Assembly (NCBI GenBank): GCA_016278505.1
Contig: JADQBQ010000001.1
Coordinates: forward strand, 186,001 to 250,000
Origin: Clostridiales bacterium
GTDB taxonomy: Bacteria; Bacillota; Desulfotomaculia; Desulfotomaculales; VENG01
Direction: 5' to 3'
Length of the DNA: 64,000 nucleotides
Position 1 is the stretch's first letter, and every line of letters begins with the position of its first letter. This document shows, one piece after another, positions 9,900-64,000 of this stretch. The position numbers and the translations under genes were made by a program. The notes beneath the pieces are model-generated. The model searched no databases, was not told the origin of the DNA, and worked only from the letters and a program-made list of their open reading frames with translations.

Positions 9900-10553
9900 G
9901 TGAAAGTAGTTCTGGGTAAAGACTTGCTGGCTGCAAACGAGAATAAGGCGGCTAAGAACCGGGAGCTTTTCGATCAAGCCGGGATTTTGGTAGTTAACTT
10001 AATTAGCTCACCCGGTTCGGGTAAGACCACTTTATTGGAAAAAACCGCCCGATTTCTGGGTGGGGACTTAAAAATGGGTGCTATTGTGGGTGATCTGTAC
10101 ACGGACAGGGATGCCCGGCGGTTAAGTGAGGCCGGCATGGTAACCGTACAAATTAACACCGAAGGGGTATGCCACCTGGATGCCAAAATGGTGGCCCGGG
10201 CGCTGCAAGAGATGCCTATGGTTTCCCTGGATCTTTTATTTATAGAAAATGTGGGAAATCTGGTTTGCCCGGCAGCCTTTGATCTGGGTGAACATGTGAA
10301 GGTGGCTGTACTCAGTGTGGCGGAAGGTACCGACAAGCCCGCCAAATACCCCGGAATTTTCCGAGAATCCGGGGCAGTGGTGATCAATAAGTCAGACCTT
10401 CTTCCTTATACAGATTTTAACGTCAAAAACTGTTTGGATGACCTGAGAGGGATTAAAGAAAATATGGCTATATTCATCACCTCAGCCAAGACCGGTGAAG
10501 GTATTGATCAGTGGTGTAAATGGCTGCGGGAGTCGAAGGGAAACATGATATGA
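9900..10553 (+). CDS. hypB: HypB, GTPase for hydrogenase nickel insertion
   Basis: This 217-residue SIMIBI-class GTPase drives nickel delivery with HypA. The Walker A motif SSPGSGKTTLLEKT lies near residue 37. GDLYTDRDARRL follows, then the metal-binding Cys/His stretch NTEGVCHLDAKM, the ENVGNLVCPA switch region and the NKSD specificity loop. There is no His-rich N-terminal tail, so it lacks the nickel-storage extension of some HypB proteins. The start is GTG 9900, 14 bp after hypA. Confidence 0.95.
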   Translation: MKVVLGKDLLAANENKAAKNRELFDQAGILVVNLISSPGSGKTTLLEKTARFLGGDLKMGAIVGDLYTDRDARRLSEAGMVTVQINTEGVCHLDAKMVARALQEMPMVSLDLLFIENVGNLVCPAAFDLGEHVKVAVLSVAEGTDKPAKYPGIFRESGAVVINKSDLLPYTDFNVKNCLDDLRGIKENMAIFITSAKTGEGIDQWCKWLRESKGNMI

Positions 10554-49792: not shown

Positions 49793-50003
49793 GTGGTAGT
49801 CAAGGGGTGTAGACATGTTTGTAATATTGGTTTATGATGTAAATGTAAATGAGTGGTGAAGGTTTTAAAAAATCCGCTAGGAATGGTGGAATTCTGCAGG
49901 ATTAGATGACGGATAATACTAGGTCATTATATAAGTGTTCAGACCGCTTACAGTATTCAATCCGAAATAATGGGCATAAAGAAGGGCAAATATTTGCCTG
50001 TAA
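49793..50003 (+). pseudogene. Decayed copy of cas2 with the end of the cas1-cas2 junction
   Basis: From 49793 the sequence repeats the cas1-cas2 junction and cas2 of 63055-63338. The shared text includes TGGTAGTCAAGGGGTGT, the ATG with MFVILVYDVNV, and a 3' part around GTGTTCAG and AATAATGGGCATA up to the stop. A one-base loss gives a TGA after 14 codons, and about 70 bases in the middle are deleted. It marks an old duplication of cas2 plus leader in front of array 1. Confidence 0.85.
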
Positions 50004-50176
50004 AATTTTTCCGTCGACATCCAATAGTGCAAAAACCCCCGGGGGGCGACGGAAAAAACGGCATGCTTTTGATGTAATTTTAGCTAAAGATAATAAAAAT
50101 CATCAATATGTGCTTGTTAAATCCTTAATTTTGCTGATAAAATGGCACAAACAAAACAAAATATGCGAAAAATCGG
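50004..50176 (+). promoter_or_regulatory. CRISPR leader of array 1
   Basis: A 173-bp A/T-rich leader similar throughout to the array 2 leader. Shared blocks are CCGTCG...CGACGG flanking a stem of C and G runs, TATGTGCTTGTT, CCTAATTTT-like text and AAAATATGCGaAAAA just before the first repeat. It points into the array, so array 1 is transcribed and extended from this side. Confidence 0.8.
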
Positions 50177-52548
50177 GGCCGTAGCCTACCTATAAGGAAT
50201 TGAAACTTGTGGTAAAATACTACAAAGCAGGCTCGGGCTTTGGCCGTAGCCTACCTATAAGGAATTGAAACCTTATAGCTTCTTTACCTTGTAACTCTAC
50301 AGCATATAAGGCCGTAGCCTACCTATAAGGAATTGAAACATCCATCAGGCGTATTTGGTTTGAGTCCGTCTCTGTATGGCCGTAGCCTACCTATAAGGAA
50401 TTGAAACCCCGGACCACCTGTTCCTGGCAGCGATCTAACTCTTGGCCGTAGCCTACCTATAAGGAATTGAAACTTAACTGCATTATATTGATGCTTCATT
50501 AACCCCGTTTTGGCCGTAGCCTACCTATAAGGAATTGAAACTCTTTTCCAGTGCGGCTTTCACCACGTCCGGGGCCATGGCCGTAGCCTACCTATAAGGA
50601 ATTGAAACAACAAAATAGTTAAATTTGCCGAAGCAGGTATTCCCCTGGCCGTAGCCTACCTATAAGGAATTGAAACATTGACAGTAAAATAAAATTGGAT
50701 CTACGACTAATTAGGCCGTAGCCTACCTATAAGGAATTGAAACTCAGAGGGGGCCATACCCTTATAAACCACAAAACCGGCCGTAGCCTACCTATAAGGA
50801 ATTGAAACACTCATAATCTTTCAATTCACCTTCCGTCAATTCCGGCCGTAGCCTACCTATAAGGAATTGAAACATAAGGGCTTCTGATTCGGTTAGCTTG
50901 ACAGCGGTTTCCGGCCGTAGCCTACCTATAAGGAATTGAAACCCATTAAGGCCCATAGGTGAAGGGTTTGACTGTTTAGTGGCCGTAGCCTACCTATAAG
51001 GAATTGAAACTTTTCTTCTTATTTAAATAATTACTGGGAAATACCGGCCGTAGCCTACCTATAAGGAATTGAAACGAGGATCGGAACCGGAAAGCACTGG
51101 TACAGCTATATACGGCCGTAGCCTACCTATAAGGAATTGAAACTTGACCTTGAAAAATCGGCGTACTCTGTTATTTCCAGGCCGTAGCCTACCTATAAGG
51201 AATTGAAACCAGTTGGAAAATATCTGCACCTTTGCTGTATACCTGGCCGTAGCCTACCTATAAGGAATTGAAACACCCTTGAGCGTAAGCCCCCGGAGGG
51301 GCTGCCGGCATTGGCCGTAGCCTACCTATAAGGAATTGAAACTAAAGGCGTCGTACCCATGTTTTTTAATTTCATCTGCGGCCGTAGCCTACCTATAAGG
51401 AATTGAAACTCATTTTAGATATATTGGTAAGGTCAATAATCATAACAGGCCGTAGCCTACCTATAAGGAATTGAAACTATAATACTGCACCTGATTCTTC
51501 CCCATTACCTCAGGCCGTAGCCTACCTATAAGGAATTGAAACTATATAAGATACTGGCAAAGAGCAAGACCCCCAAGACGGCCGTAGCCTACCTATAAGG
51601 AATTGAAACACCCATAATCTCTAAACGCATTGTGCGGAATCCTTTTCGGCCGTAGCCTACCTATAAGGAATTGAAACTGGAAATGGATTTGTAATTCTGA
51701 AGTAAATTAATCTTAGGCCGTAGCCTACCTATAAGGAATTGAAACACCTCCATAAATTAAATATAAAAAACTCTTGCAAACAGGCCGTAGCCTACCTATA
51801 AGGAATTGAAACCTGCTAAACGCATAAGGGTCACTAAATACAGATAAAGGCCGTAGCCTACCTATAAGGAATTGAAACAATGTAATCATTGCAAAAAAGT
51901 TTATTGCATAGTTTAAGGCCGTAGCCTACCTATAAGGAATTGAAACCTGGTACGAGACCCTAACTGCTGGAAGCCTAGTTCCTGGCCGTAGCCTACCTAT
52001 AAGGAATTGAAACACGGTTTTCCAGGTAAAGGTTTCTTCTTTTACCTGGGGCCGTAGCCTACCTATAAGGAATTGAAACGGAGCGTACTCCGCGCTAACG
52101 TGTTTACCTATTTCAGGCCGTAGCCTACCTATAAGGAATTGAAACTCAAAGGGCGGCTTGTGATCTAATAGCATACCATGTGCGGCCGTAGCCTACCTAT
52201 AAGGAATTGAAACTCAACTATTGTTACAAAGCTGATATACTTCTCAACTACGGCCGTAGCCTACCTATAAGGAATTGAAACTCCGTTGCGGATAAAAAGT
52301 TTTGCAGATCCCATATAGGGCCGTAGCCTACCTATAAGGAATTGAAACTATATCGTTCTAGGTGTTGCCCTTGGTTTCATTGTGAGGCCGTAGCCTACCT
52401 ATAAGGAATTGAAACATGACCCCGGCACAGGGGGTGAGGACGAAAGTGGCGGGCCGTAGCCTACCTATAAGGAATTGAAACCGATAACCAGTTGGTGTTT
52501 CAAACCTCTTATTTTGGTGGCCGTAGCCTACCTATAAGGAATTGAAAC
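50177..52548 (+). CRISPR. CRISPR array 1: 36 repeats, 35 spacers
   Basis: Thirty-six 30-bp repeats that appear identical begin GGCCGTAGCC, contain TACCTATAAG and end GAATTGAAAC. They are separated by 35 spacers of 35-39 nt. The 3' end AATTGAAAC is the type I-B handle. The repeat differs from that of array 2 only at positions 2-4 (GCC against TTT). I saw no duplicated spacer by eye. No degenerate terminal repeat is visible; the last repeat at 52519-52548 is intact. Confidence 0.99.
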
Positions 52549-52610
52549 AAACCGTCGGTGCGAGGTCTTTACCTTGTCAGTTAGCTGTTATATTATGATA
52601 ATCTTAAAAG

Positions 52611-52870
52611 GGAGCAGATCTACAGGCTTTGGATCGGACATTACAAGCGTTTAAACAGAGTCACCAGCACATGGTTTTGGTGGTCGATGAATACGGCGGC
52701 ATCGCCGGCTTTGTTTGGGGATCAGCGAAGTGTTTGACTTGCCGATGGATAACGATGATGAATATGATACACTGTGAGTTATGTGTTGAGTAAGGTGGTT
52801 GACAGACCTAAAGTTGTCGATATTATAGAACTTCCTGGCTATCGGGGTGGAGAATGTAGGCGGTCTACGG
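52611..52870 (+). pseudogene. Remnant of a CorC/HlyC-type CBS protein
   Basis: GADLQALDRTLQAFKQSHQH then MVLVVDEYGGIAGFVW matches the CBS-domain end of CorC/HlyC membrane-associated proteins (HMxLVVDEYGGxxG). After a gap, DLPMDNDDEYDTL resembles the start of the transporter-associated domain, then stops. Frameshifts and a deletion separate the parts. No intact start or membrane domain remains. Confidence 0.65.
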
Positions 52871-53030
52871 ATTCACCGCTGCATCCGTTAAATTATTCAA
52901 GAGAAGGAGATATGTGAAGCCAACCGCTGGCCTGAGTTAACTAAAGTAAGCTAAAGGTTTAGGTTCAAAGTTAATATAACGGCCGAAGCCCGGTTTTGGT
53001 ATTAGCTAGATTATACATTTGTGTATGATA

Positions 53031-53126
53031 ATGGCAGAGGTCTCGCCTTTTGTATATATTACGGGTAAGCAAGAAACATCTTTATTTGACATGTTAGCGC
53101 AGCGTTTTGCAATAAGTAAAGACTGA
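53031..53126 (+). CDS. Possible 31-aa peptide next to a terminator
   Basis: ATG 53031 opens MAEVSPFVYITGKQETSLFD then MLAQRFAISKD. No good ribosome-binding site is seen. A terminator hairpin starts at its last codons. It is included because it lies between array 1 and the mini-CRISPR; it may be chance. Apart from it and the CorC remnant, 52549-53280 holds nothing I can support. Confidence 0.25.
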   Translation: MAEVSPFVYITGKQETSLFDMLAQRFAISKD

Positions 53127-53165
53127 CTGCTTTCCCATTTTGGAAAACATGTCAGTCCTTTTCTT
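53118..53165 (+). terminator. Terminator in the array 1 to cas interval
   Basis: GACTGAC-TG-CTTTCC and GGAAAAC-ATG-TCAGTC form a long interrupted stem followed by CTTTTCTTCTTTT. What it ends is unclear; the array 1 transcript or a small RNA is possible. Confidence 0.65.
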
Positions 53166-53281
53166 CTTTTCATATTCAGAAAGATTATGCACAGACCGGA
53201 ACACTATGGTATCCGGAATGGGGGTAACAAGTTACGGCTCAGGAAGATTAGTTAAGATAAGGTGCCGTCTCCTGTCTTTTA

Positions 53282-53359
53282 AAGAAAACTCCTTGTAGGT
53301 AGGCTAATTGCAAGTAAATGAAAATGCGTTTAAATTCCTTTTAGGTAACGCTACAAAAC
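53282..53359 (-). ncRNA. Degenerate mini-CRISPR (CreA/CreR-like guide RNA candidate)
   Basis: Read on the minus strand, 53359-53328 is a degenerate copy of the array 2 repeat (GTTTTGTAGC, ACCTAAAAGG, ATTTAAAC) with two single-base insertions and a few substitutions. Then come 16 bases, GCATTTTCATTTACTT. A second degraded repeat follows from 53311 to about 53282 (TAGCCTACCTACAAGGAG, 16 of 18 bases as in the true repeat up to the AGGA block). The handle ATTTAAAC differs from ATTGAAAC at one base. A promoter directly precedes it. Layout pseudo-repeat, short pseudo-spacer, pseudo-repeat is that of CreA or CreR crRNA-like RNAs. Processing by Cas6 is inferred. Confidence 0.75.
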
Positions 53360-53361
53360 TT

Positions 53362-53390
53362 ATTGTAGCAATGAAGGTTAGTGCTGTCAA
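53362..53390 (-). promoter_or_regulatory. Promoter of the mini-CRISPR
   Basis: On the minus strand TTGACA (53390-53385), 17 bp, TACAAT (53367-53362). Predicted +1 near 53355, inside the first pseudo-repeat. One mismatch from consensus. Confidence 0.8.
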
Positions 53391-53405
53391 ATAGAAAAAA
53401 ACTAG

Positions 53406-53434
53406 TTGACGAGGTAATATTTTCTATGTATGGC
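53406..53434 (+). promoter_or_regulatory. Promoter of the DUF3800 gene
   Basis: TTGACG (53406-53411), 17 bp, TATGGC (53429-53434). It is divergent from the mini-CRISPR promoter; the two -35 boxes are 15 bp apart. Confidence 0.55.
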
Positions 53435-53451
53435 AAAGCAAAGAATATTAA

Positions 53452-53467
53452 AAGTAAATGATAATGC
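53452..53467 (-). promoter_or_regulatory. Target site of the mini-CRISPR guide
   Basis: GCATTATCATTTACTT (minus strand) matches the pseudo-spacer at 15 of 16 bases, with the mismatch at position 6. The 3 bases 5' of it are TTA, compatible with known clostridial I-B PAMs. It lies in the 5' leader, next to the AAAGGGAG ribosome-binding site of the DUF3800 gene. Confidence 0.75.
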
Positions 53468-53484
53468 TAAAGGGAGTTGAAAAG

Positions 53485-54315
53485 TTGTTTGTTTACTTAG
53501 ATGAAAGCGGGCGATTAGATGCGGAGGATACGGCTAAAAGACCTACAATAGCAGGTGTGATTATTCCGGAAAAAAGTTTAAATGATGCTACAAGCACATT
53601 GCTTAATCTGAAAAGGGAATTATGTCCTCCTTTTATAAATCCAGAAATGTATGAATTAAAAGCAAATAAGATACTGCGGCCAAGCGCTGGAGGATGGAAA
53701 ATCGAGTTAGCAGAGAGGTTCTTTTGTGATTACTTTGTATCATTGGAAGATGTGCGGGTAGTTGCAGTGGTATGTCGCCGGCCTTCAAAACTATTAAAAT
53801 CCAACAGTGATATTTTACCACTGCATCATATCTGGCTTTTAACTAAAATTTTTAATTATATGCAAGAGAATAAGCCAGATGAGTTTGCGTCTTTTGTATA
53901 TGATTCGCAAGGAAATGATGCAGATGAGAGATTATCCAGAGAGTTTACGAGTTACTTATACCGGCATCCTCAGGGACAGGAGTTTTTAAGAAGTATAACT
54001 CCCACACCTTTATTCGTTAATTCTTCACTGGTGCCGGGGATAGAGCTGGCAGATATGATAGCAGGTTGTTTACGCCATCAAGCTGATGCTTATGATGAAC
54101 AAAACACTTCAAGTCCTAAAAAGGCTTACAGTAATTGGCACCTTAGCCGTTACACGCGTTATAAGCGAATTATAGAACAAAAACAGGCAGAATTGTCACC
54201 TAATCAATATTCTATTCAATATGCCAGTAAGGATGCGATGGAAAGAGTGTTGGCACATGCTGAGGGAAAACCACTGGATAATGCTGATGTAGAACCTGAA
54301 GACGTTAAAAAATAA
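53485..54315 (+). CDS. DUF3800 domain protein
   Basis: This 276-residue protein starts at TTG 53485, 8 bases after AAAGGGAG; in-frame ATGs at 53458 and 53464 have no ribosome-binding site. The product opens LFVYLDESGRLDAED and contains LVPGIELADMIAGCLRH, both DUF3800 hallmarks; the family has an RNase H-like fold with acidic residues, and a nuclease role is suspected. It has no membrane segment. It stands alone between the mini-CRISPR and the cas operon. Its leader carries the guide target, so Cascade may keep it off. Whether it is toxic, a nuclease, or defence-linked is inference. Confidence 0.8.
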   Translation: MFVYLDESGRLDAEDTAKRPTIAGVIIPEKSLNDATSTLLNLKRELCPPFINPEMYELKANKILRPSAGGWKIELAERFFCDYFVSLEDVRVVAVVCRRPSKLLKSNSDILPLHHIWLLTKIFNYMQENKPDEFASFVYDSQGNDADERLSREFTSYLYRHPQGQEFLRSITPTPLFVNSSLVPGIELADMIAGCLRHQADAYDEQNTSSPKKAYSNWHLSRYTRYKRIIEQKQAELSPNQYSIQYASKDAMERVLAHAEGKPLDNADVEPEDVKK

Positions 54316-54471
54316 ACAAACCGCAAAGCGAGAAATGCCTTCCCACAGCGGCTTGCAAGATTATTATAAGCTTTTGTAGATTCGTTGTCAATAAAATATA
54401 AAGATATTATATTGTTGCGCTTAAAAAAACAATAAATATTTTTGATAAACATTCCTATCACGGACACAATG

Positions 54472-54501
54472 TTGACCTGTCATTTTGTTAAACTTTATAA
54501 A
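54472..54501 (+). promoter_or_regulatory. Promoter of the cas operon
   Basis: TTGACC (54472-54477) and TATAAA (54496-54501), 18-bp spacer, or TTATAA with 17. It lies about 30 bp before the cas6 start. No pseudo-spacer match was found here. Confidence 0.6.
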
Positions 54502-54529
54502 AAGGTCGTAAATTGGAAGGAGGGATAGC

Positions 54530-55294
54530 TTGCATCTGTGTTTGTCTCTGCGGGAAAAGAACGGCGAACTTGTTTTGCCCATTCACTATAACCGCCTTAT
54601 TCAGGGCGCCATATATAACAATATATCTACTGAACTGGCAGCATTTCTCCATGACCGGGGGTATGTGTACAATGGCCGCAGTTTTAAATTATTTTCATTT
54701 TCAAGAATATTGGGAAATTACAAATTAGACAGGGTAAATAAACAAATATCTTTCAGTGGAGATGTAAAACTTTACATCTCTTCACCGGTGCAGGAATTCT
54801 GTACTTCACTCATGGGTTGTCTGTTGGGGGAAGGTATTCACCTGGGCGGGACTTCGGTGGAAGTTGTGGGGATTAAGGCTGAAAAACCGGTGGTAAGCGG
54901 GGAGGTTATCGAGGTTGAACTTCTTTCCCCTGTGGTGATATACAGTACTTTTTTGAAACCGGAAGGGGGGAAGTATACATGTTATTTCCATCCAGGGGAG
55001 AAGGAGTTTGTACATCTATTGGAGACCAATCTGAGGAAAAAATATAGGGCTTTTTACGGGACGGAACTCCCGGAGGGCGATTTCGGTGTAGAAACCTTGA
55101 ACCGGCCGTGCCTTAATATCACTATGTACAAGCATACAGTAATAAAAGGGTACAGCTGCCGCATTAAGCTGGGTGGCCCCCCGGAGTTACTGCAGGTGGC
55201 GGTAGACGCCGGACTTGGAGGAAAAAATTCCCAAGGGTTCGGTTATATCCGGTTGTGTGGTAACGGTAGTGGCGAAAGGAGGGGGCAAAGTTGA
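54530..55294 (+). CDS. cas6: Cas6, crRNA-processing endoribonuclease
   Basis: Cas6 (254 aa) cuts the precursor crRNA within each repeat, leaving the 8-nt 5' handle. Two ferredoxin-like folds are expected; the C-terminal glycine-rich loop GLGGKNSQGFGYIRL (~residue 228) is diagnostic. A His in IHYNRLIQGAIYNNI near residue 19 is typical of the N-terminal part. TTG 54530 follows AAGGAGGG. It is the first gene of an eight-gene cas operon and overlaps cas8b by 4 bp. Confidence 0.92.
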   Translation: MHLCLSLREKNGELVLPIHYNRLIQGAIYNNISTELAAFLHDRGYVYNGRSFKLFSFSRILGNYKLDRVNKQISFSGDVKLYISSPVQEFCTSLMGCLLGEGIHLGGTSVEVVGIKAEKPVVSGEVIEVELLSPVVIYSTFLKPEGGKYTCYFHPGEKEFVHLLETNLRKKYRAFYGTELPEGDFGVETLNRPCLNITMYKHTVIKGYSCRIKLGGPPELLQVAVDAGLGGKNSQGFGYIRLCGNGSGERRGQS

Positions 55295-57399
55295 TTATTG
55301 AAAGTTTGATCAGGCTCGGGCGCCCCATGGTGGAAGGGGGACTTCCACCTGCAGCAATACTGCGGCAGGTATCGGATGTTGCCGAAGTTGGCGCCAAGAG
55401 CTTTATGGCCCGGGTTTTTGTGGTTGAAGTGGACAGGCAAGGAGATAAGAGTAATATAGCGGTGTTGCCCGTGCAACAGTGGGGAGATTACCATGACCAG
55501 AGTTCGAAGGGCAAAAAGCAGGTTTTTCAGCAGGATGTGGGGAGGGCGGTGGGGGCGCCCTTCATCATACCCAGGGGAAACCCGTTGAAACCTCAAGGAC
55601 GGTATGGCGTACCTTCTTATTTGGTGTATGATAAGCAATTCCATAGTTTTTTTGAGGATGCAGGTGAATTGGAAAAGTTTATCTCCGGCAGGTTGAAAAA
55701 GTCTGTGGGTATTGACTTATCCAGCCAAGAAGTAGAACAAATTGCTCTACAGCTGCATCAGGCGGTTAATAACATGGATAAAGGATCCGGGGAAAAAATG
55801 CTGGGCCTGATTGTGCTGACGCTGCCGGGGGAAAATGAACCTTATCAGTTAAGGGAAGAGATTCCGGTTGGCAACGATTATCTGGCTGATCTAGGTCCCA
55901 GTGTGCTGCATCAAGGAAAACATTTAGTGGCGGATCTGAACCGGGTAAAAGAAAGGTTTTGGGAGGCTAAGTTGGCCGAAGGGGCTGAAATGGGGGAGCG
56001 GGAAGGGCCGGGTGCCGTTTGTTATTTTTGCGGAGAGGAGGGGCGTGTTGTTTCTTCCTATTGTAAGGCCTGGTCATGGTTTACCACCACCTGGAGCTGT
56101 CCCCTGCCGTCTGCTCTAAAAACCGGTGAGTTGGTGGAAAGCATAGCCCTATGCCCTGGTTGTTACAATGCTTTGACTTATGGGGCCAATCTGTTTAATA
56201 AGTTAACAAAGCAGCTCGATAACTGGCTGGTTAAGGAGATATTCTCGCCCTCGGCTACTGCTGCGGGCAAAGAATTAACCAGGAAAGGTAGCACCCCGGA
56301 CGCTGTATACGGTTGTGCCTATGTTTTGCCGGTGCTGGACACCTTCTTGGAAGACGAAGATGATCGAAACGATTTTGTTGCCGGGGTAATATCCATGCTG
56401 GGTAACGGTTCCGGGCGAAATAAGGTAGACATGCACCTGCGGGAGATTACAGGGTTTGAAACCATCCTGCCTGCAGAAATGGCGGGTGATAACTACCGGA
56501 TGACTATAATATATTATTCCGGTGATTCGAGTCGTGGAGATATTCACCTGCGGGCCACCATAGAGGATGTGCTACCCTCAGTGGCCAGGGAACTAACAAA
56601 AATTACAGGTATTACGCGTCAATACGCCCTGCAGGTGGCCGAGAGCCTTTACAACGAACTGTCGGACAAGTACAAATACTTTTTGAGCAGTCGTTATGGG
56701 TCGCTACCCTATTTATTAACCACCGCTTATGGTGCTCCTTATACCTGGAGAACGATAGATGTCGTTCTCCACCGTGGCGAACTATCTAGGCGAGCATTCC
56801 TTTTTAATGTAGCGGATAGGATGAATGAGCTGGCCCGTAAGCTCCCCGACAGCTTTCAAGAGCTTTGCGGAGAGGTCATTTTCTATCTTACCTTTAACCA
56901 GCTTTTACTTCAATATGATAAAGCCATAGCAATAAAAACCGGAAACGGGGGGTGTAATTTGATGAGAGACTGGCGGGAATTATGCCGTTTGGTGGCGGAA
57001 GCACCGGCTGATGATTTGGATCTTAAGGATCCGGAGGAACTGGGTTTTGCTGCTGGTTGTCTAGTTCGGTTCTTTGATTGGAAATATCAGAAAAAAAGTA
57101 AGGAAAAAGGACAAGAAAAAAAGTTTTTGCAACACCGGGTTATGATTTTTGGCAGTAGTTTAACACCAGAATTTATATGGAAAAGGGCTCTCTCCCGTAT
57201 TGACGAGTATGCCTTGAAATTAAATATTGAACTCTCAAATAATTTTCAGCAGCAGGTTGCAGTGGTGCTCATGGAATACAGCCGGTTGAGGGATGAGGTG
57301 AACAGGGAAAGGGATGCCTTTATGGCGGCCTTTTGGGCCGGTTATGCTCTAGCTTGGACGGGAAAAGAAAAAAATGGTAAAGGTAAAAATAATTCTTAA
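55291..57399 (+). CDS. cas8b: Cas8b large subunit of type I-B Cascade (TM1802-like)
   Basis: This 702-residue protein sits in the large-subunit position and has the TM1802-family look: LIRLGRPMVEGGLPPAAILRQ at the N-terminus, then a zinc-binding region with CYFCGEEGRVVSSYCKA (~residue 243) and LCPGCYNAL (~288). In I-B systems Cas8b recognises the PAM and stabilises the R-loop. GTG-like/TTG start overlaps the end of cas6. The C-terminal ~120 residues are helical, as expected for a fused small-subunit-like part. Confidence 0.85.
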   Translation: MIIESLIRLGRPMVEGGLPPAAILRQVSDVAEVGAKSFMARVFVVEVDRQGDKSNIAVLPVQQWGDYHDQSSKGKKQVFQQDVGRAVGAPFIIPRGNPLKPQGRYGVPSYLVYDKQFHSFFEDAGELEKFISGRLKKSVGIDLSSQEVEQIALQLHQAVNNMDKGSGEKMLGLIVLTLPGENEPYQLREEIPVGNDYLADLGPSVLHQGKHLVADLNRVKERFWEAKLAEGAEMGEREGPGAVCYFCGEEGRVVSSYCKAWSWFTTTWSCPLPSALKTGELVESIALCPGCYNALTYGANLFNKLTKQLDNWLVKEIFSPSATAAGKELTRKGSTPDAVYGCAYVLPVLDTFLEDEDDRNDFVAGVISMLGNGSGRNKVDMHLREITGFETILPAEMAGDNYRMTIIYYSGDSSRGDIHLRATIEDVLPSVARELTKITGITRQYALQVAESLYNELSDKYKYFLSSRYGSLPYLLTTAYGAPYTWRTIDVVLHRGELSRRAFLFNVADRMNELARKLPDSFQELCGEVIFYLTFNQLLLQYDKAIAIKTGNGGCNLMRDWRELCRLVAEAPADDLDLKDPEELGFAAGCLVRFFDWKYQKKSKEKGQEKKFLQHRVMIFGSSLTPEFIWKRALSRIDEYALKLNIELSNNFQQQVAVVLMEYSRLRDEVNRERDAFMAAFWAGYALAWTGKEKNGKGKNNS

Positions 57400-57413
57400 A
57401 GGAGGCTTTTCCC

Positions 57414-58376
57414 TTGAGTATTAGTGGTGGAGAGGTTTTGTTCGTTAAGTGTGTAAAGGATGGTATCCCTAACAGGGATCCACTTAATGAAAGCGATGCC
57501 AGGAGAATGTTTGGAGAGGACGATGGGCGTATTTCCCTTTCTGATGTGAGTATAAAGCGTGATATGAGGGATTTTGTGCTGGCAAAGTGCCCAAATGGTG
57601 GAAAGGATAAACGTGATTTCATCTTCTGTCGCCAGGAGCGAACGGAAGATGGAAAACTGCTGGGCCGGCAAAATTTGGCTGAAAAGATACTGGAAGAGCT
57701 GAATATAAAATCATCAAAGAACAAGCGTGATAATCTATTGAAAGCTGCCTTTGATATGCGTGTTTTCGGCGCAGTATACAGTGTAGGGAAAGAGAGTTTC
57801 AACCAAACGGGCCCGGTGCAGTTCGGTTGGGCCCACTCGCTACACCCGGCGGAAACAAAATATGTGCAAGGCACTGTGGTCATGCCCAGTAAGGATGTAA
57901 AGGTTAACGAGCAGGGAGAGGGCCAGGGGAGTCAGCAGGGTACTATCTGGACTACCTATACATTACCCTTTGCGGTTTTCGCTATGCCGGCGGTGATAAA
58001 TGCCAATATTGCCCGGGATACGGGCATGGATGAAAACGATTTGGAACTGTTGTTGGAAGGGTTGTGGAAGGGGACTCAGTACCGTCAGGCACGCGGGCGC
58101 GGCATCCAGCAGCCTCTTATGATGCTGCATGTGGAATACAAGGATCCCTTTTTCCGTATTGGCTACCTGGAAGACTTTATTGAACTTAAACCCGAGCGGG
58201 AGGTTTGGCAGGGAGGAAATCCTCCAACTTCACTGCCGGAAGTGGAACTAAATGTTTCCGCTCTGGAAAAACTTTTATCTGAAAATGAAAATAGAATTGC
58301 CCGCATCCGTTGCTGGGTTCACCCGGGGCTGAGGATAACAGGGAATCTCCCCGGGGAAAAGCAAGAGCTGGCATAG
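57414..58376 (+). CDS. cas7: Cas7 (Csh2) backbone subunit of Cascade
   Basis: Cas7 (320 aa) polymerises along the crRNA spacer. GEVLFVKCVKDGIPNRDPLN opens the RRM fold; DMRVFGAVYSVGKESFNQTGPVQFGWAHSLHP is the family core, and ARDTGMDENDLELLLEGLWKGTQ follows. AAGGAGG precedes the TTG start at 57414. The Cas7 family sets every sixth guide base out of pairing, which matters for the mini-CRISPR match. Confidence 0.92.
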   Translation: MSISGGEVLFVKCVKDGIPNRDPLNESDARRMFGEDDGRISLSDVSIKRDMRDFVLAKCPNGGKDKRDFIFCRQERTEDGKLLGRQNLAEKILEELNIKSSKNKRDNLLKAAFDMRVFGAVYSVGKESFNQTGPVQFGWAHSLHPAETKYVQGTVVMPSKDVKVNEQGEGQGSQQGTIWTTYTLPFAVFAMPAVINANIARDTGMDENDLELLLEGLWKGTQYRQARGRGIQQPLMMLHVEYKDPFFRIGYLEDFIELKPEREVWQGGNPPTSLPEVELNVSALEKLLSENENRIARIRCWVHPGLRITGNLPGEKQELA

Positions 58377-58415
58377 TGGTAGGAAAGGTTTGGGGAGGTG
58401 AGGTAACTGAAACTA

Positions 58416-59120
58416 TTGGTATTTGACCTGCAGGGGAAGATGGCACATTTTCGCCGCCCCGATACTACAGGAACGCACGCCACTTACCCCTTTATAACCA
58501 GGACTGTTTTGCAGGGGCTAATTGCTTCCATACTGGGAATGGAACGTCTGACAGGGAATAACTGGGTGGGGATCCAACTGCTTTCCCCGGTGCATACCAG
58601 TTCTCAGGAGATGTCCATGCTGGGTAAAGGCTGGCTGGGTGAAGCCAGGAGCACCTTTAACCGGCCCACTTCGGTGGAATTAGTGATTTCACCCCATTAT
58701 CGTGTTTACTATACCGGTACGCACCTGGACAGGCTCGGGGAAATGTTGCGCGAAGGAAAGAGTCATTATCATACTTACCTGGGAAGTGCATACTGCCTGG
58801 TCTTTCCCCGGTTTACAGGATGTTATGATGTTCCGGAATTAAATCCCGGAGCCGGTATGGAACTGGTATGTAAAACCGTTGTCCCCAGCCATGTTATAGA
58901 AGGTTTGATTCCCGTAGATGGCGCACAATACGGCCGGGTGGGTGGAATGCATTACGAATACCTGGGAGAAAGGCGTTTCAGTGGTACAGTTAATGTCATT
59001 TACGAGACTGTAGGGCAACCTGTTGTCTTTCGGGTTCGGAACAATGAGGATGAAAAATTGAGGGATAAACCAGTTAAATTCTTTTCCCGGCGGGAAAAAG
59101 AGGTGGTAGTCCTGTGGTAG
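58416..59120 (+). CDS. cas5: Cas5, handle-binding subunit of Cascade
   Basis: Cas5 (about 234 aa, I-B type) caps the 5' handle of the cr[21 protein letters not shown] at the N-terminus and [17 protein letters not shown] follow the Cas5h pattern. The reading frame begins with TTG 58416, but CTG 58407 (giving [10 protein letters not shown]) is closer to the usual Cas5 N-terminus and to the GGAGGTGAGG site. The end overlaps cas3. Confidence 0.88.
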
Positions 59121-61522
59121 TTCCAATAAAGGATTGTATTGCCAGGCCTGATGAGGAAAACGGAATGCAACATTTGCTGGTTGATCATCTGGAAGCGGTG
59201 GCTTTCAGCTGGGGAAAGACCGAGGAAGAGAAAGAAGATGCGTTGAAGTTCCTGGCCGGGCTTTTGCATGATGCCGGTAAGGCTCATGCAGGTTGGCAGG
59301 ATTATATCAATACACCGGAGGAGAAGCGCCGGAAAGGGCCGGCACATTCTCCTGCCGGTGCCACCCTTTTTTGTTATTGTGCCGTATGTTTAATAGAAAA
59401 GTGGCAATTAAAGGGAGTGGAGTTAAGGCAATTAAACTCTCTCGTCATGCGGTTGGCCAGGGATATTTATGACCACCATGGTCCCCTGGAGGATATCGGA
59501 CCCGAAGTGCCCTGGGTTAACACTTTACATCCAGAATTCTTTTGCGAAGTTGACCTGCCTGGTTTAATTGAACTCGTCAATCGTCATTTTCCTGAACTCA
59601 AACTTGGTCAAAATGGATTTGCAGACTGGCTGAATGAGTTTCCCCTCACCTGGGAGAAGTGGTATAACACTCTCCCAGGGTTTATAAAGCGCAAGTTGAG
59701 CGAGAAAGGGAATAAATACAGGAATGCGGCTGGGGCGGCATTGCGTTCGCTTTCTTCCGGTTTGATCGCGGGGGATCGTTACCATGCTGCGGATCTCAAT
59801 TCTCTTAGTCTATCCCCTGCAGCGGCACAAAGTGCTCTTGACCGCTTGATTTCTCTGTGCAGGGCCAAGGGTGAGGAAGTGCTTCACCTGGGAACTGCTT
59901 CACCGGAAATGGTAAGACTTAGGCAGTGGCTACAGGACTCCGTTTTTAACAACTACGTACGTAGTAAACAGGAGAGGTTTCTAAGCTTGTTGCTTCCCAC
60001 TGGCTTGGGCAAGACATTAAATTCTCTCAGGCTAGCAATGTCCTCTTGTGCCGTGGGAGAGCGGCAAAAAATAATCTATGTGGCCCCGTATCTCTCCATA
60101 TTGTCCCAGGCCACAGCTGAAATAAGGTCTTATACAGGGCTGGAAGTGGTTCAGCACCATCATTTATCGGTAATGGATGAGAAGCAGTCCGGTGAAGAAA
60201 TGGATGAAACTTTTCTATTGGCGCTGGAGGCCTGGCAAGCAGCTCCCATCATTACCACCACGTTCAACCAGCTTTTCCGGGCCCTGTTCCCCAGGCGTGC
60301 TCAACAAACAATGCGCCTCAAAGGCATGGAAAAGGCATTTGTTATTGTTGACGAACCGCAAATAATTGACGGGGCTGTCTGGAATTTATTTTTACAAATG
60401 CTGGACGCAGCGGCCAGGGAATATGACCTACAGGTATTGTTCACCACGGCCACCCTGCCGCCGTCTGATATGGTATTCCCCGGGGGGTTTGTTCCGCTGG
60501 CGCCTGATTTTAAAACTCCTGACCGGTATACAGTTGCGGTGCTTGAGGAACCTCTGGACCAGTACGGGGTCGCTGAAACGGTTTTGAATGAGATAGAAAC
60601 GGTGAGTTCGGTGGGTGTGGTCATGAATACCATTCGTGACGCAGCGACGGTGTATGAAATTATTAAAGATAAAATTCGGGCGGGAGTAGACTGCTATAAT
60701 CTGTCCGGGTGTATGACCCCTCTGCATAAAGCCGGAAGGATAAGGGAAATCGCGCTCAGATTGAAGTCCGGTGAACCAACTGTGGTGGTTTGTACTCAAA
60801 TTCTAGAGGCAGGGGTGGATCTAAGCTTCCGGTTGTTAATGAGAGCTTTACCTGTGATGCCTTCCATTGCCCAGGCTGCGGGAAGGGCAAACAGGCACGG
60901 TGAAGGGACAAAGGCACGGGTCATAGTCTTTCCTTTCCGCAGGGACGGGGAAACGGATACCAGGATACACGTATACCGTTCCATGATATCCCGGGAGGAA
61001 ACCAACGGCTGTATAGCACGCTACCCGTCATGGGAAGAACCGCTCACAGCCGGAGTGGTGCGCGAATTTTATGATCGCACTTTCGCCCGGAATGCTTGTA
61101 CTGCGGCCCTGGATAAGTTGACAGACGCTGCTTGCGGTCAGTGGTCCGCACTTTCAGGTATTAGCCCTTTCGGATCCGATGCACCCCGCATCAATCTTTT
61201 TGTACCGTGGGGTGAAGACTTACTAGAGGATAAAGCTGCAAAGCTTTTACACAGGTATGCACCTGAAGGGGTAGAACAACTTTACGAAAATTATGTTGAA
61301 GGCGAGCACAGGCGGCTGTCGTTTGTTGACCGGAAACGCTTTATGGCATTGCTCCAGTTTTTCTTGGTTCCTGTGAGTGATAAGCAGGCCTGCAAATTAG
61401 CTGCTTCCCTTAGTGATATTGCCATTCCTCGCTTGGCTAACCCCGGTAACTACTCGGAGGAAACCGGGCTGGCCCATTATAGCGATAAGGGAGAAGATGA
61501 TTTTGATGCTTGTTGCTACTAA
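59114..61522 (+). CDS. cas3: Cas3 helicase-nuclease
   Basis: Cas3 (802 aa) degrades target DNA after Cascade binding. The N-terminal HD nuclease shows [20 protein letters not shown] (HD at ~53) and [10 protein letters not shown]. The SF2 helicase part has Walker [10 protein letters not shown] (~293), motif [10 protein letters not shown] (DEPQ where DExH is usual, ~412), motif [22 protein letters not shown] and motif [14 protein letters not shown] (~588). GTG 59114 overlaps the cas5 stop. Confidence 0.95.
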
Positions 61523-61546
61523 TTTTTGTTCTGGGAGGCAAAAACC

Positions 61547-62053
61547 GTGCGGGATAATGAGATAAGGGTAGGCGGTACCCTCATCTGGTACTACTACGTT
61601 TGTAAGCGGGAAGTATGGCTTATGGGGCGGCAAATCACTGCTGACCAGGACGATACCAATGTGGTCCTGGGTCGGTTTTTTGCCGAGCAGTCCTACGGCA
61701 GAGAGAAAAAAGAAATAACTTTTGGCCATATGAAGTTTGATGTAGTGAGAAAAGACAGGCATGGACTGGTAGTGGCCGAAGTAAAGAAAAGCAGTAAGCA
61801 TATCAAAAGTGCAAAAATGCAGCTGGCCTTTTACCTGTGGGAATTATTTCAAAAAGGCATAAAGGCAAGGGGCGAACTCCTTTTTCCAAAGGAGAAAAGG
61901 CGGGAGCTGGTAGAGTTAACTGATGAGTTAATAGATAACTTATTAGAGGCCAAAAGGGATATTTTGAGAATCATTTATGATTCTATTCCCCCTGAAGCTG
62001 TAAAGAAACAGATATGCCGAAATTGTGCCTATGCTGAGTTTTGCTGGTCGTAA
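61547..62053 (+). CDS. cas4: Cas4, RecB-like nuclease of spacer acquisition
   Basis: Cas4 (168 aa) trims prespacers and helps select PAMs with Cas1-Cas2. The Fe-S cluster cysteines are YYVCKREVW near the N-terminus and CRNCAYAEFCW at the C-terminus. The RecB motif VVAEVKKSSKHIKSAKMQLAFYL is intact. GTG 61547 follows GGGAGG; an in-frame TTG at 61526 overlaps it. Confidence 0.93.
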   Translation: MRDNEIRVGGTLIWYYYVCKREVWLMGRQITADQDDTNVVLGRFFAEQSYGREKKEITFGHMKFDVVRKDRHGLVVAEVKKSSKHIKSAKMQLAFYLWELFQKGIKARGELLFPKEKRRELVELTDELIDNLLEAKRDILRIIYDSIPPEAVKKQICRNCAYAEFCWS

Positions 62054-62066
62054 AGGGGGGACTTTT

Positions 62067-63059
62067 TTGAAAAAGACCATTTACATTTTTAATGACGGAC
62101 AACTAAAGCGAAAAGGTAATACGCTGTATTTTGAATCGGAAGAACAAAAAAAGTATCTTCCAGTTGAAGATGTGGGAGAATTAATGGTTTTTGGGGAGGT
62201 CTCCCTGAATAAAAAATTCCTGGAGTTTGCCTCCCAGAAAGAAATTATCATTCATTATTTCAGTTATTACGGTTACTACATGGGTAGTTTTTATCCTCGT
62301 GAGCACCTGAATTCAGGGCATATGATTCTGAAGCAGGCTGAGCATTACCTGGATGAAGAAGAGCGTATACGCATTGCCAGGCAGTTCGTCAGCGGGGCAG
62401 CCAGGAACATCAGGCAAGTATTGCGGTATTATAACAATCGTGTGGGAGGAATATCAGAAACCCTAAGCAGGGTAGACGAAGTGATCATGTCTCTGGATGA
62501 CTGCAGTGATATCAACCGCCTGATGGCAGCCGAAGGCAACATCAGGGACAGGTACTACAGGGTTTTCGACAGGATTACCCGTAACCCAGATTTCCCATTT
62601 GAGGAACGGTCCAGGCGCCCACCCAGAAACCACTTAAATACCTTGATAAGTTTTGGTAACAGCATCATGTATACCATAGCGTTGAGTGAGATCTACAAGA
62701 CGCACCTGGATCCACGCATAGGTTATCTTCACGCCACAAACTTCCGCAGATTCTCTCTAAACCTAGACTTGGCGGAAATCTTCAAGCCTATCATAGTAGA
62801 CAGGGTTATATTCAGCATATTGGGCAAAAAAATGGTAACCGCCAATGACTTTGCAGAAGAAGGCGAAGGGATTATGATGAAAGACCGGGCCCGCAAAACA
62901 TTCGTGCAGGAGCTTGACGCAAAATTAAAAACTACCATTAAACATAAAGGGATAGGGAGGCCAGTCTCCTACAGGAGGATCATGCGCCTGGAACTATATA
63001 AACTGGAAAAACACCTGATTGGGGAAAGTTTTTATGAGCCATTCATTGCCCAATGGTAG
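62067..63059 (+). CDS. cas1: Cas1 integrase
   Basis: Cas1 (330 aa, I-B type) integrates new spacers at the leader. IYIFNDGQLKRKGNTLYF opens the N-terminal beta domain. The catalytic part contains AEGNIRDRYYRVFD (active Glu), HLNTLISFGNSIMYT, IGYLHATNFRRFSLNLDLAEIFKP (His and Asp) and GKKMVTANDFA. TTG 62067 follows GGGGGGA; the frame extends upstream into cas4 but is not needed. Confidence 0.95.
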   Translation: MKKTIYIFNDGQLKRKGNTLYFESEEQKKYLPVEDVGELMVFGEVSLNKKFLEFASQKEIIIHYFSYYGYYMGSFYPREHLNSGHMILKQAEHYLDEEERIRIARQFVSGAARNIRQVLRYYNNRVGGISETLSRVDEVIMSLDDCSDINRLMAAEGNIRDRYYRVFDRITRNPDFPFEERSRRPPRNHLNTLISFGNSIMYTIALSEIYKTHLDPRIGYLHATNFRRFSLNLDLAEIFKPIIVDRVIFSILGKKMVTANDFAEEGEGIMMKDRARKTFVQELDAKLKTTIKHKGIGRPVSYRRIMRLELYKLEKHLIGESFYEPFIAQW

Positions 63060-63074
63060 TCAAGGGGTGTGGAC

Positions 63075-63338
63075 ATGTTTGTGATATTGGTTTATGATGT
63101 AAATGTAAAACGAGTGGTAAAGGTTTTAAAAACAGCCAGGAAATACCTGCACTGGGTACAAAATTCAGTACTTGAAGGTGAAATATCTAAGGCTAATTTC
63201 CATAAACTAAAGGCGGAACTCCGCAGTATTATCAATGACGAAGAAGATTCCGTGATTATATATGTGTTCAGATCCTTGCAGTATTCAAGTCGCGAAATAA
63301 TGGGCATAGAGAAAGGTGGTCAGGATATTTTCCTGTAA
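63075..63338 (+). CDS. cas2: Cas2, adaptation subunit
   Basis: Cas2 (87 aa) forms the core of the Cas1-Cas2 integrase. MFVILVYDVNVKRVVKVLKTARKYL, with the conserved Asp, NSVLEGEIS and SVIIYVFRSLQY are typical. ATG 63075 follows AAGGGGTG. A decayed copy of this gene with its leader lies 13 kb upstream. Confidence 0.95.
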   Translation: MFVILVYDVNVKRVVKVLKTARKYLHWVQNSVLEGEISKANFHKLKAELRSIINDEEDSVIIYVFRSLQYSSREIMGIEKGGQDIFL

Positions 63339-63512
63339 AAATTTTCCGTCGCCCCCCAATGATGTAAAAAACCCTGGGGGTCGACGGAACAAACGGTTTC
63401 GTTTTGGATAAATTCCGGTCAAAGTTCGTAAAAAACTTCACTATGTGCTTGTTTGATACCTAATTTTATTGAGAAATGACAGAAATCAATCAAAATATGC
63501 GCAAAAAATCTG
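63339..63512 (+). promoter_or_regulatory. CRISPR leader of array 2
   Basis: A 174-bp A/T-rich leader directly after cas2. CCGTCG-CCCCC and GGGGGTCGACGG can form a stem, and the element is shared with the array 1 leader, as is AAAATATGCGCAAAAAA at its array end. Confidence 0.85.
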
Positions 63513-64000
63513 GTTTGTAGCCTACCTATAAGGAATTGAAACCAAAGAAAAGCCTAGTTCTAAAAATGGTCGCACTTTATGTTTGTAGCCTACCTATAAG
63601 GAATTGAAACGAAAAGTTCCCAACCTGTCCTACACTGATAAATATATGTTTGTAGCCTACCTATAAGGAATTGAAACGCCTTTGCCATAGCATTAGCTGC
63701 CGCGCCAAAGATTGTTTGTAGCCTACCTATAAGGAATTGAAACCCAGGTCTATATTAATCACCCTTTCTTATTGGTTTCGGTTTGTAGCCTACCTATAAG
63801 GAATTGAAACGCGTAATTTTGTTAGAGTGTATCATTTTGCTATTGAGTTTGTAGCCTACCTATAAGGAATTGAAACTATAGAAACTCTTGCATTTCATAT
63901 GCTTCGCACTTTGGTTTGTAGCCTACCTATAAGGAATTGAAACCTAACACCATCACCAAAACCTAGAAAGTTGCCATCATGTTTGTAGCCTACCTATAAG
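63513..64000 (+). CRISPR. CRISPR array 2 (continues beyond the window)
   Basis: Eight 30-bp repeats beginning GTTTGTAGCC and ending GAATTGAAAC, the last cut off by the window end after 20 bases, with seven spacers of 36-38 nt. It differs from array 1 at repeat positions 2-4. It follows cas2 and the leader, so it is the primary array of this locus. Confidence 0.99.

Follow-up and report, generated by a model that had tools for sequence, protein, structure and literature searches.

A CreA-like guide beside a type I-B cas operon probably directs Cascade to the leader of a DUF3800 gene

In the window analysed here (the whole stretch of 64,000 nucleotides), a decayed two-repeat mini-CRISPR lies on the minus strand at 53282-53359, in front of a DUF3800 gene and on the opposite strand to it, and carries a 16-nt guide matching the leader of that gene. 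We consider it reasonably probable that a CreA-like RNA from this element loads the type I-B Cascade and represses the DUF3800 gene without cutting, and that the RNase-H-like protein is freed on loss of Cascade as a toxin or abortive effector. Repression of the gene through Cascade, which this reading shares with one in which the protein is a stand-by nuclease, appears highly probable from the sequence, while we are less sure that the protein serves as a toxin or abortive effector.

The mini-CRISPR belongs to a locus with a complete cas operon, flanked by two CRISPR arrays, in which cas8b, cas7/csh2, cas5, cas6, cas3 and cas1b are all present, as expected for type I-B. Array 1 and cas6 bracket the DUF3800 gene, which is co-oriented with cas6 and lies some 215 bp upstream of it. 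The features are as follows.

50177-52548, plus strand: CRISPR array 1, 36 repeats of GGCCGTAGCCTACCTATAAGGAATTGAAAC.
53282-53311, minus strand: degenerate psi-repeat 2, core TAGCCTACCTACAAGGAGTT at 53306-53287, matching the repeat core at 18/20 positions with a score of 33.
53312-53327, minus strand: 16-nt guide (pseudo-spacer) GCATTTTCATTTACTT; the plus strand reads AAGTAAATGAAAATGC.
53328-53359, minus strand: psi-repeat 1, GTTTTGTAGCGTTACCTAAAAGGAATTTAAAC, local alignment to the array-2 repeat with a score of 43.5 against a shuffle maximum of 32.
53362-53390, minus strand: guide-RNA promoter TTGACA N17 TACAAT, 11/12 consensus, with transcription predicted to begin on the first bases of psi-repeat 1.
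53406-53434, plus strand: possible DUF3800 promoter TTGACG N17 TATGGC, weak at 8/12, which would start transcription just ahead of the target.
53452-53467, minus strand: guide target GCATTATCATTTACTT, 15/16 matches, mismatch at guide position 6; the plus strand reads AAGTAAATGATAATGC.
53468-53470, minus strand: PAM TTA; the four bases 5' of the target on this strand are TTTA.
53469-53476, plus strand: Shine-Dalgarno sequence AAAGGGAG of the DUF3800 gene.
53485-54315, plus strand: DUF3800 gene, 276 aa, RNase-H-like, PF12686 with E 2e-9.
54530-63338, plus strand: type I-B cas operon, cas6-cas8b-cas7-cas5-cas3-cas4-cas1-cas2.
63513-64000, plus strand: CRISPR array 2, repeat GTTTGTAGCCTACCTATAAGGAATTGAAAC, extending past the end of the window.

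The mini-CRISPR appears, from its sequence, to make a short guide RNA. Its degenerate repeats keep the 5' handle in the manner of CreA (ATTTAAAC vs ATTGAAAC), psi-repeat 1 supplying the 8 nt AUUUAAAC where the array handle is AUUGAAAC, so that the predicted Cas6-processed RNA would consist of AUUUAAAC followed by the guide GCAUUUUCAUUUACUU. The promoter in front of psi-repeat 1 is the only promoter-like site in 53200-53520 and one of 8 sites in the window with at least 11/12 consensus. Rfam matches at the locus are confined to the array repeats, and a scan of 52600-54600 for DUF3800-associated RNA motifs returned nothing up to E 5. As separate observations on the arrays, a copy of the cas2 start and leader (75-96% to 63054-63476) precedes array 1 at 49794-50141, and the array seems from this sequence to have moved or been duplicated together with its leader. 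Phages Parageobacillus JGon-2020a (CP063417.1:7540-7569) and Paenibacillus SV21 (MZ218124.1:23681-23714) each hold one element matching the window's CRISPR repeat, possibly phage decoy repeat RNAs; a search of phages for a PAM from the array spacers gave these repeat-like elements only, with no usable protospacer.

The first-pass annotation had claimed that guide and target agree at 15 of 16 positions with the mismatch at position 6, and the sequence confirms this. As in CreA, the seed (positions 1-5 and 7-11) is fully complementary to the promoter/leader region of the regulated gene beside a PAM. A search of the 3.9-Mb genome that allowed up to two mismatches found perfect matches, with position 6 left free, only at the guide and target sites themselves, and three other sites that differ from the guide by one further mismatch. 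Within 49-64 kb no second target with 0 or 1 seed mismatches was found, the cas promoter included; the DUF3800 leader was the only one. When the 160-bp region was Markov-shuffled, 2/20,000 copies reached 15/16 anywhere, before any requirement for a PAM or a mismatch position. We rejected a chance origin on these shuffles together with 20,000 control guides from related loci (below), and on this sequence evidence a chance match is very unlikely.

The regulated gene most likely begins at TTG 53485, judging from its sequence, giving a protein that starts MFVYLDESG; an alternative ATG at 53458, inside the target, was set aside in favour of this codon with its Shine-Dalgarno sequence AAAGGGAG. With this start, the target is 5'-leader DNA, 18-33 bp ahead of the start codon, and it abuts the Shine-Dalgarno sequence, which the PAM touches. 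DUF3800 is a common family of unknown function. It is the only Pfam family that the protein matches (PF12686, 38.7 bits against a cut-off of 21). A structural model (mean pLDDT 72.7), whose underlying alignment was shallow with five sequences and which served for fold assignment only, comes closest to RNase HII/HIII (VIA, Z 11.1 over 171 residues, 3.7 Å); its leading structural matches are all type 2 RNases H, with RNase HII the best. The acidic residues D6, E57, D140 and D190 are invariant in five homologues. An RNase-H-like fold with invariant acids makes the modelled protein a candidate nuclease; fold alone proves neither activity nor toxicity. Scans of collections of genome and viral contigs found no DUF3800 homologue, and among 42 genomes with the same kind of cas8 there were 16 PF12686 matches, none beside cas except the window's own.

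For a comparison across relatives, we screened cas8-type I-B loci for degenerate repeats lying apart from the arrays, read the next 18 nt as the guide in each case, and sought targets by seed match (positions 1-5 and 7-11) alone, with the PAM unconstrained. Six loci beyond the window (G008, G067, G017, G003, G105 and G409) each yielded a target, always in exact register. All seven seed-matched targets, the window's included, carry TTA (TTTA or CTTA in the flanks of the six relatives), and mismatches through nt 16 fall at positions 6 and 12 only; because the cas8-linked pairs of G067 and G017 are mutually related, independent origins are fewer than seven. As a control, 20,000 guides were drawn from AT-rich positions in the same loci: for three of them a TTA-flanked seed match lay no more than 300 bp away, and one in 20,000 showed every feature asked for, as against 7/7 real guides. 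Across 11 guide/target pairs, 15 of the 17 mismatches within 16 nt lie at positions 6 and 12 (binomial p 3e-12, computed on the assumption of independent mismatches, which does not hold for related pairs). This pattern is, at the level of sequence, the trace expected from an effector that leaves each sixth base unread. In a further locus, G047, the target departs from the seed once, at position 9. No target was found for the ectopic-repeat guides of L034, L042 and L115, and L052 and L058 lie at a contig edge; the L034 element (10101-10130, G019) is a single near-intact ectopic repeat just upstream of cas6.

These rules agree with those of experimentally studied systems. In the type I-B system of P. 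thermoglucosidasius, TTA is a validated PAM for cleavage and repression, crRNAs with at most 26 nt of complementarity repress without interference, and repression persists with guides of 15 nt (PMC10551041). Haloarchaeal CreTA depends on every one of positions 1-5 and 7-11 and leaves 6 and 12 free (PMC8501985). The independent pairs from related I-B loci and these reports together bear out the earlier claims that TTA beside the target is an allowed I-B PAM and that the sixth base goes unread, and the first report supports the claim that short matches lead to binding without cleavage.

The regulated genes differ between loci. In G008 the target lies upstream of an AbiEii-family gene between cas6 and cas8 (PF08843, E 5.7e-25), and G033, G059 and G054 have homologues of it (62-75% identity), each adjoining a cas6 and with a psi-array, guide and target of its own. 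In these four genes (L037:7344-8497, and L143, L144 and L145 for the latter three) the psi-array occupies the 5' leader, with a TTA-flanked target upstream and no other gene between guide array and AbiEii-family gene. The four seeds read AATTG.TTCTG, GATTG.TTTTA, AGTTG.TTTTA and ATTTG.TTATG, with zero mismatches inside each pair and 2-4 between pairs, in a search that for the three homologues required TTA and allowed one seed mismatch. By their sequences, guide and target seeds have thus changed together at four cas-linked loci. In a G067 homologue, L129 (G067:C97), the psi-array is kept and the target is apparently deleted relative to G054. The first-pass annotation had held that guide and target changing independently in relatives would speak against its proposal; on the sister AbiEii modules, where covariation was read since no relative examined has DUF3800 beside cas, they changed together in four modules, among five whose psi-array can be recognised.

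In G409 the regulated gene is a divergent CARF gene (APE2256, PF09651; L105:11188-12800), whose promoter TTGACA N18 TATAAT is followed directly by the target; this module has the same divergent layout as the DUF3800 module, and no relative of the CARF gene was found in four other genomes of its order. By analogy, the DUF3800, AbiEii and CARF modules look like CrePA/CreTA. Guides at the remaining loci are directed at cas genes and are CreR candidates by the same kind of comparison: the targets of the psi-arrays lie at the cas6 start in G003 and G047 and in the cas8 leader in G105, while in G067 and G017 the target lies just before a psi-array in front of cas8; the psi-arrays of G105, G067 and G017 all precede cas8. 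Psi-arrays with targets at the cas6 start or before cas8 were located at L044:8700-9080, L045:10040-10340, L038:3887-3982, L039:10880-10990 and L046:8030-8153.

Since the window module obeys both the short-guide rules of type I-B and the seed rules of CreA with a 16-nt guide, we infer that Cascade occupies the leader of DUF3800 and prevents its transcription, leaving the DNA uncut. In the proposed mechanism, a CreA-like gene (psi-repeat 1, the 16-nt guide and psi-repeat 2) would be transcribed divergently from DUF3800, and its RNA would be trimmed by Cas6 and loaded on the locus's own type I-B Cascade. The complex would bind the TTA-flanked target through the read positions 1-5, 7-11 and 13-16 and block DUF3800 transcription, the guide being presumably too short to license cutting by Cas3. 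Were Cascade lost, or inhibited by something such as an anti-CRISPR or a virus, the DUF3800 protein would be made and act as a toxin or abortive effector. What the sequences show is the anatomy, the uniqueness of the match and the comparative signature of guide, target and PAM; the steps from transcription and Cas6 trimming to repression, toxicity and trigger are predicted. A nuclease released on Cascade failure, as the modelled fold suggests, would fit an abortive or anti-anti-CRISPR effector. Against such a guard speak the failure of the searches to turn up a second CRISPR-linked DUF3800 gene, the DUF3800 promoter, which is weak by consensus, the ectopic repeats for which no target was found, and the apparent loss of the AbiEii target in G067.

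The same regulatory evidence would serve equally well if the protein were not a toxin and instead a defence nuclease harmless to the host, held on stand-by and released when Cascade is busy or inhibited. DUF3800 proteins are accessory nucleases in VI-F and V-A2 loci (PMC12669027) and also with Cas12a2 (PMC10910872), which favours such a role; however, the sister modules regulate a protein of the AbiEii family, a toxin family, and published CreA targets are toxins (PMC8501985, PMC12737573), which leaves this a minor possibility, perhaps one chance among several. Less likely again is autoregulation of the CreR kind, in which DUF3800 would head the cas transcript and the guide would throttle cas expression. 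The short co-oriented gap to cas6, in which no plus-strand terminator was found, and the sister psi-arrays that target the cas6 start or precede cas8 would suit it, but cas6 has its own promoter-like site (TTGTCA N17 TATATT, 54385-54413), the guide has no target there, and the target it does have abuts the DUF3800 Shine-Dalgarno sequence, so we regard this as improbable, with some read-through from DUF3800 into cas conceivable. Between DUF3800 and cas6, at 54298-54391 on the minus strand, a perfect 12/12 sigma-70 promoter leads straight into a U run preceded by a stable hairpin (-20.6 kcal/mol, z -3.8), which marks a candidate RNA of ~60 nt, antisense to the 3' end of DUF3800.

Functionless matches, left by local duplication or by decayed arrays, seem very improbable: guide and target lie 140 bp apart in a pair that extends as a 21-nt, 86% repeat, and duplication could first have created it, and array remnants are common at these loci, yet register, PAM and the 6-nt period of mismatches reappear at unrelated loci whose guides are unrelated in sequence. 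That the psi-array is the remnant of an immune spacer against foreign DNA, its DUF3800 match being accidental, is hardly credible despite the type I arrays flanking the site, since the guide has 16 nt against the 35-39 nt of the array spacers (from repeat spacing) and its sole genome-wide match without further mismatches lies 140 bp off.

Returning to the guard reading, there is about an even chance that these Bacillota use type I-B Cascade generally as an RNA-guided repressor whose protein effectors are interchangeable: one kind of degenerate mini-CRISPR with a short guide would cage a CARF protein, a DUF3800 nuclease or an AbiEii-family nucleotidyltransferase, each freed when CRISPR is disabled. 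If so, DUF3800 would be assigned a function, that of a CRISPR-guarded effector, crRNA-like control of proteins would extend past KilA-N to include an AbiEii-family toxin, and the system would be a built-in sensor for anti-CRISPR proteins. The signature of mismatches at positions 6 and 12 with a TTA PAM offers a purely computational route to guide-regulated genes near cas operons.

Among known systems, CreTA, the type VIII toxin-antitoxin of type I-B haloarchaea (PMC8501985, PMC9458426), shares with the window two degenerate repeats, pairing at 1-5 and 7-11, a free sixth base, a PAM-flanked target and placement at a cas operon; CreT, however, is a small toxic RNA, whereas the regulated window transcript encodes a conserved 276-aa ORF, and the CreTA PAM is TTC rather than TTA. 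The type I-E CreTA of Citrobacter rodentium likewise has its guide gene upstream of the regulated gene on the opposite strand, with a PAM-flanked target, but regulates a 96-bp ORF without homology and uses the PAM ATG (PMC12055562). CreR (Liu et al. 2023, doi 10.1016/j.chom.2023.08.005), as outlined in the reviews PMC12737573 and PMC13131331, also employs a crRNA-like guide with a partial match, but is aimed at the cas promoter, whereas the window guide is directed at DUF3800 and not at the cas operon promoter. The VI-F, V-A2 and Cas12a2 loci share an RNase H-fold DUF3800 protein at a CRISPR locus; they are class 2, and guide-based repression is not described for them (PMC12669027, PMC10910872). 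Also close is CrePA (Shu et al. 2025, doi 10.1038/s41589-024-01693-3), in which, in the account given by PMC12737573, a crRNA-like RNA, CreA, is partially complementary to the promoter region of the gene for the protein toxin CreP and guides the CRISPR effector there to repress it. CreP is typically a KilA-N protein and interferes with FtsZ, whereas the window encodes, in a type I-B setting, a DUF3800 RNase-H-like protein without a KilA-N match, a putative toxin. In the open-licence literature, which covers CrePA and CreR through reviews, we found no paper tying DUF3800, AbiEii or CARF genes to a CreA-like guide. CreTA, CrePA and CreR are already known; a DUF3800 effector under such a guide is new in the literature searched, and the window module may, by analogy, work like CrePA with another effector.
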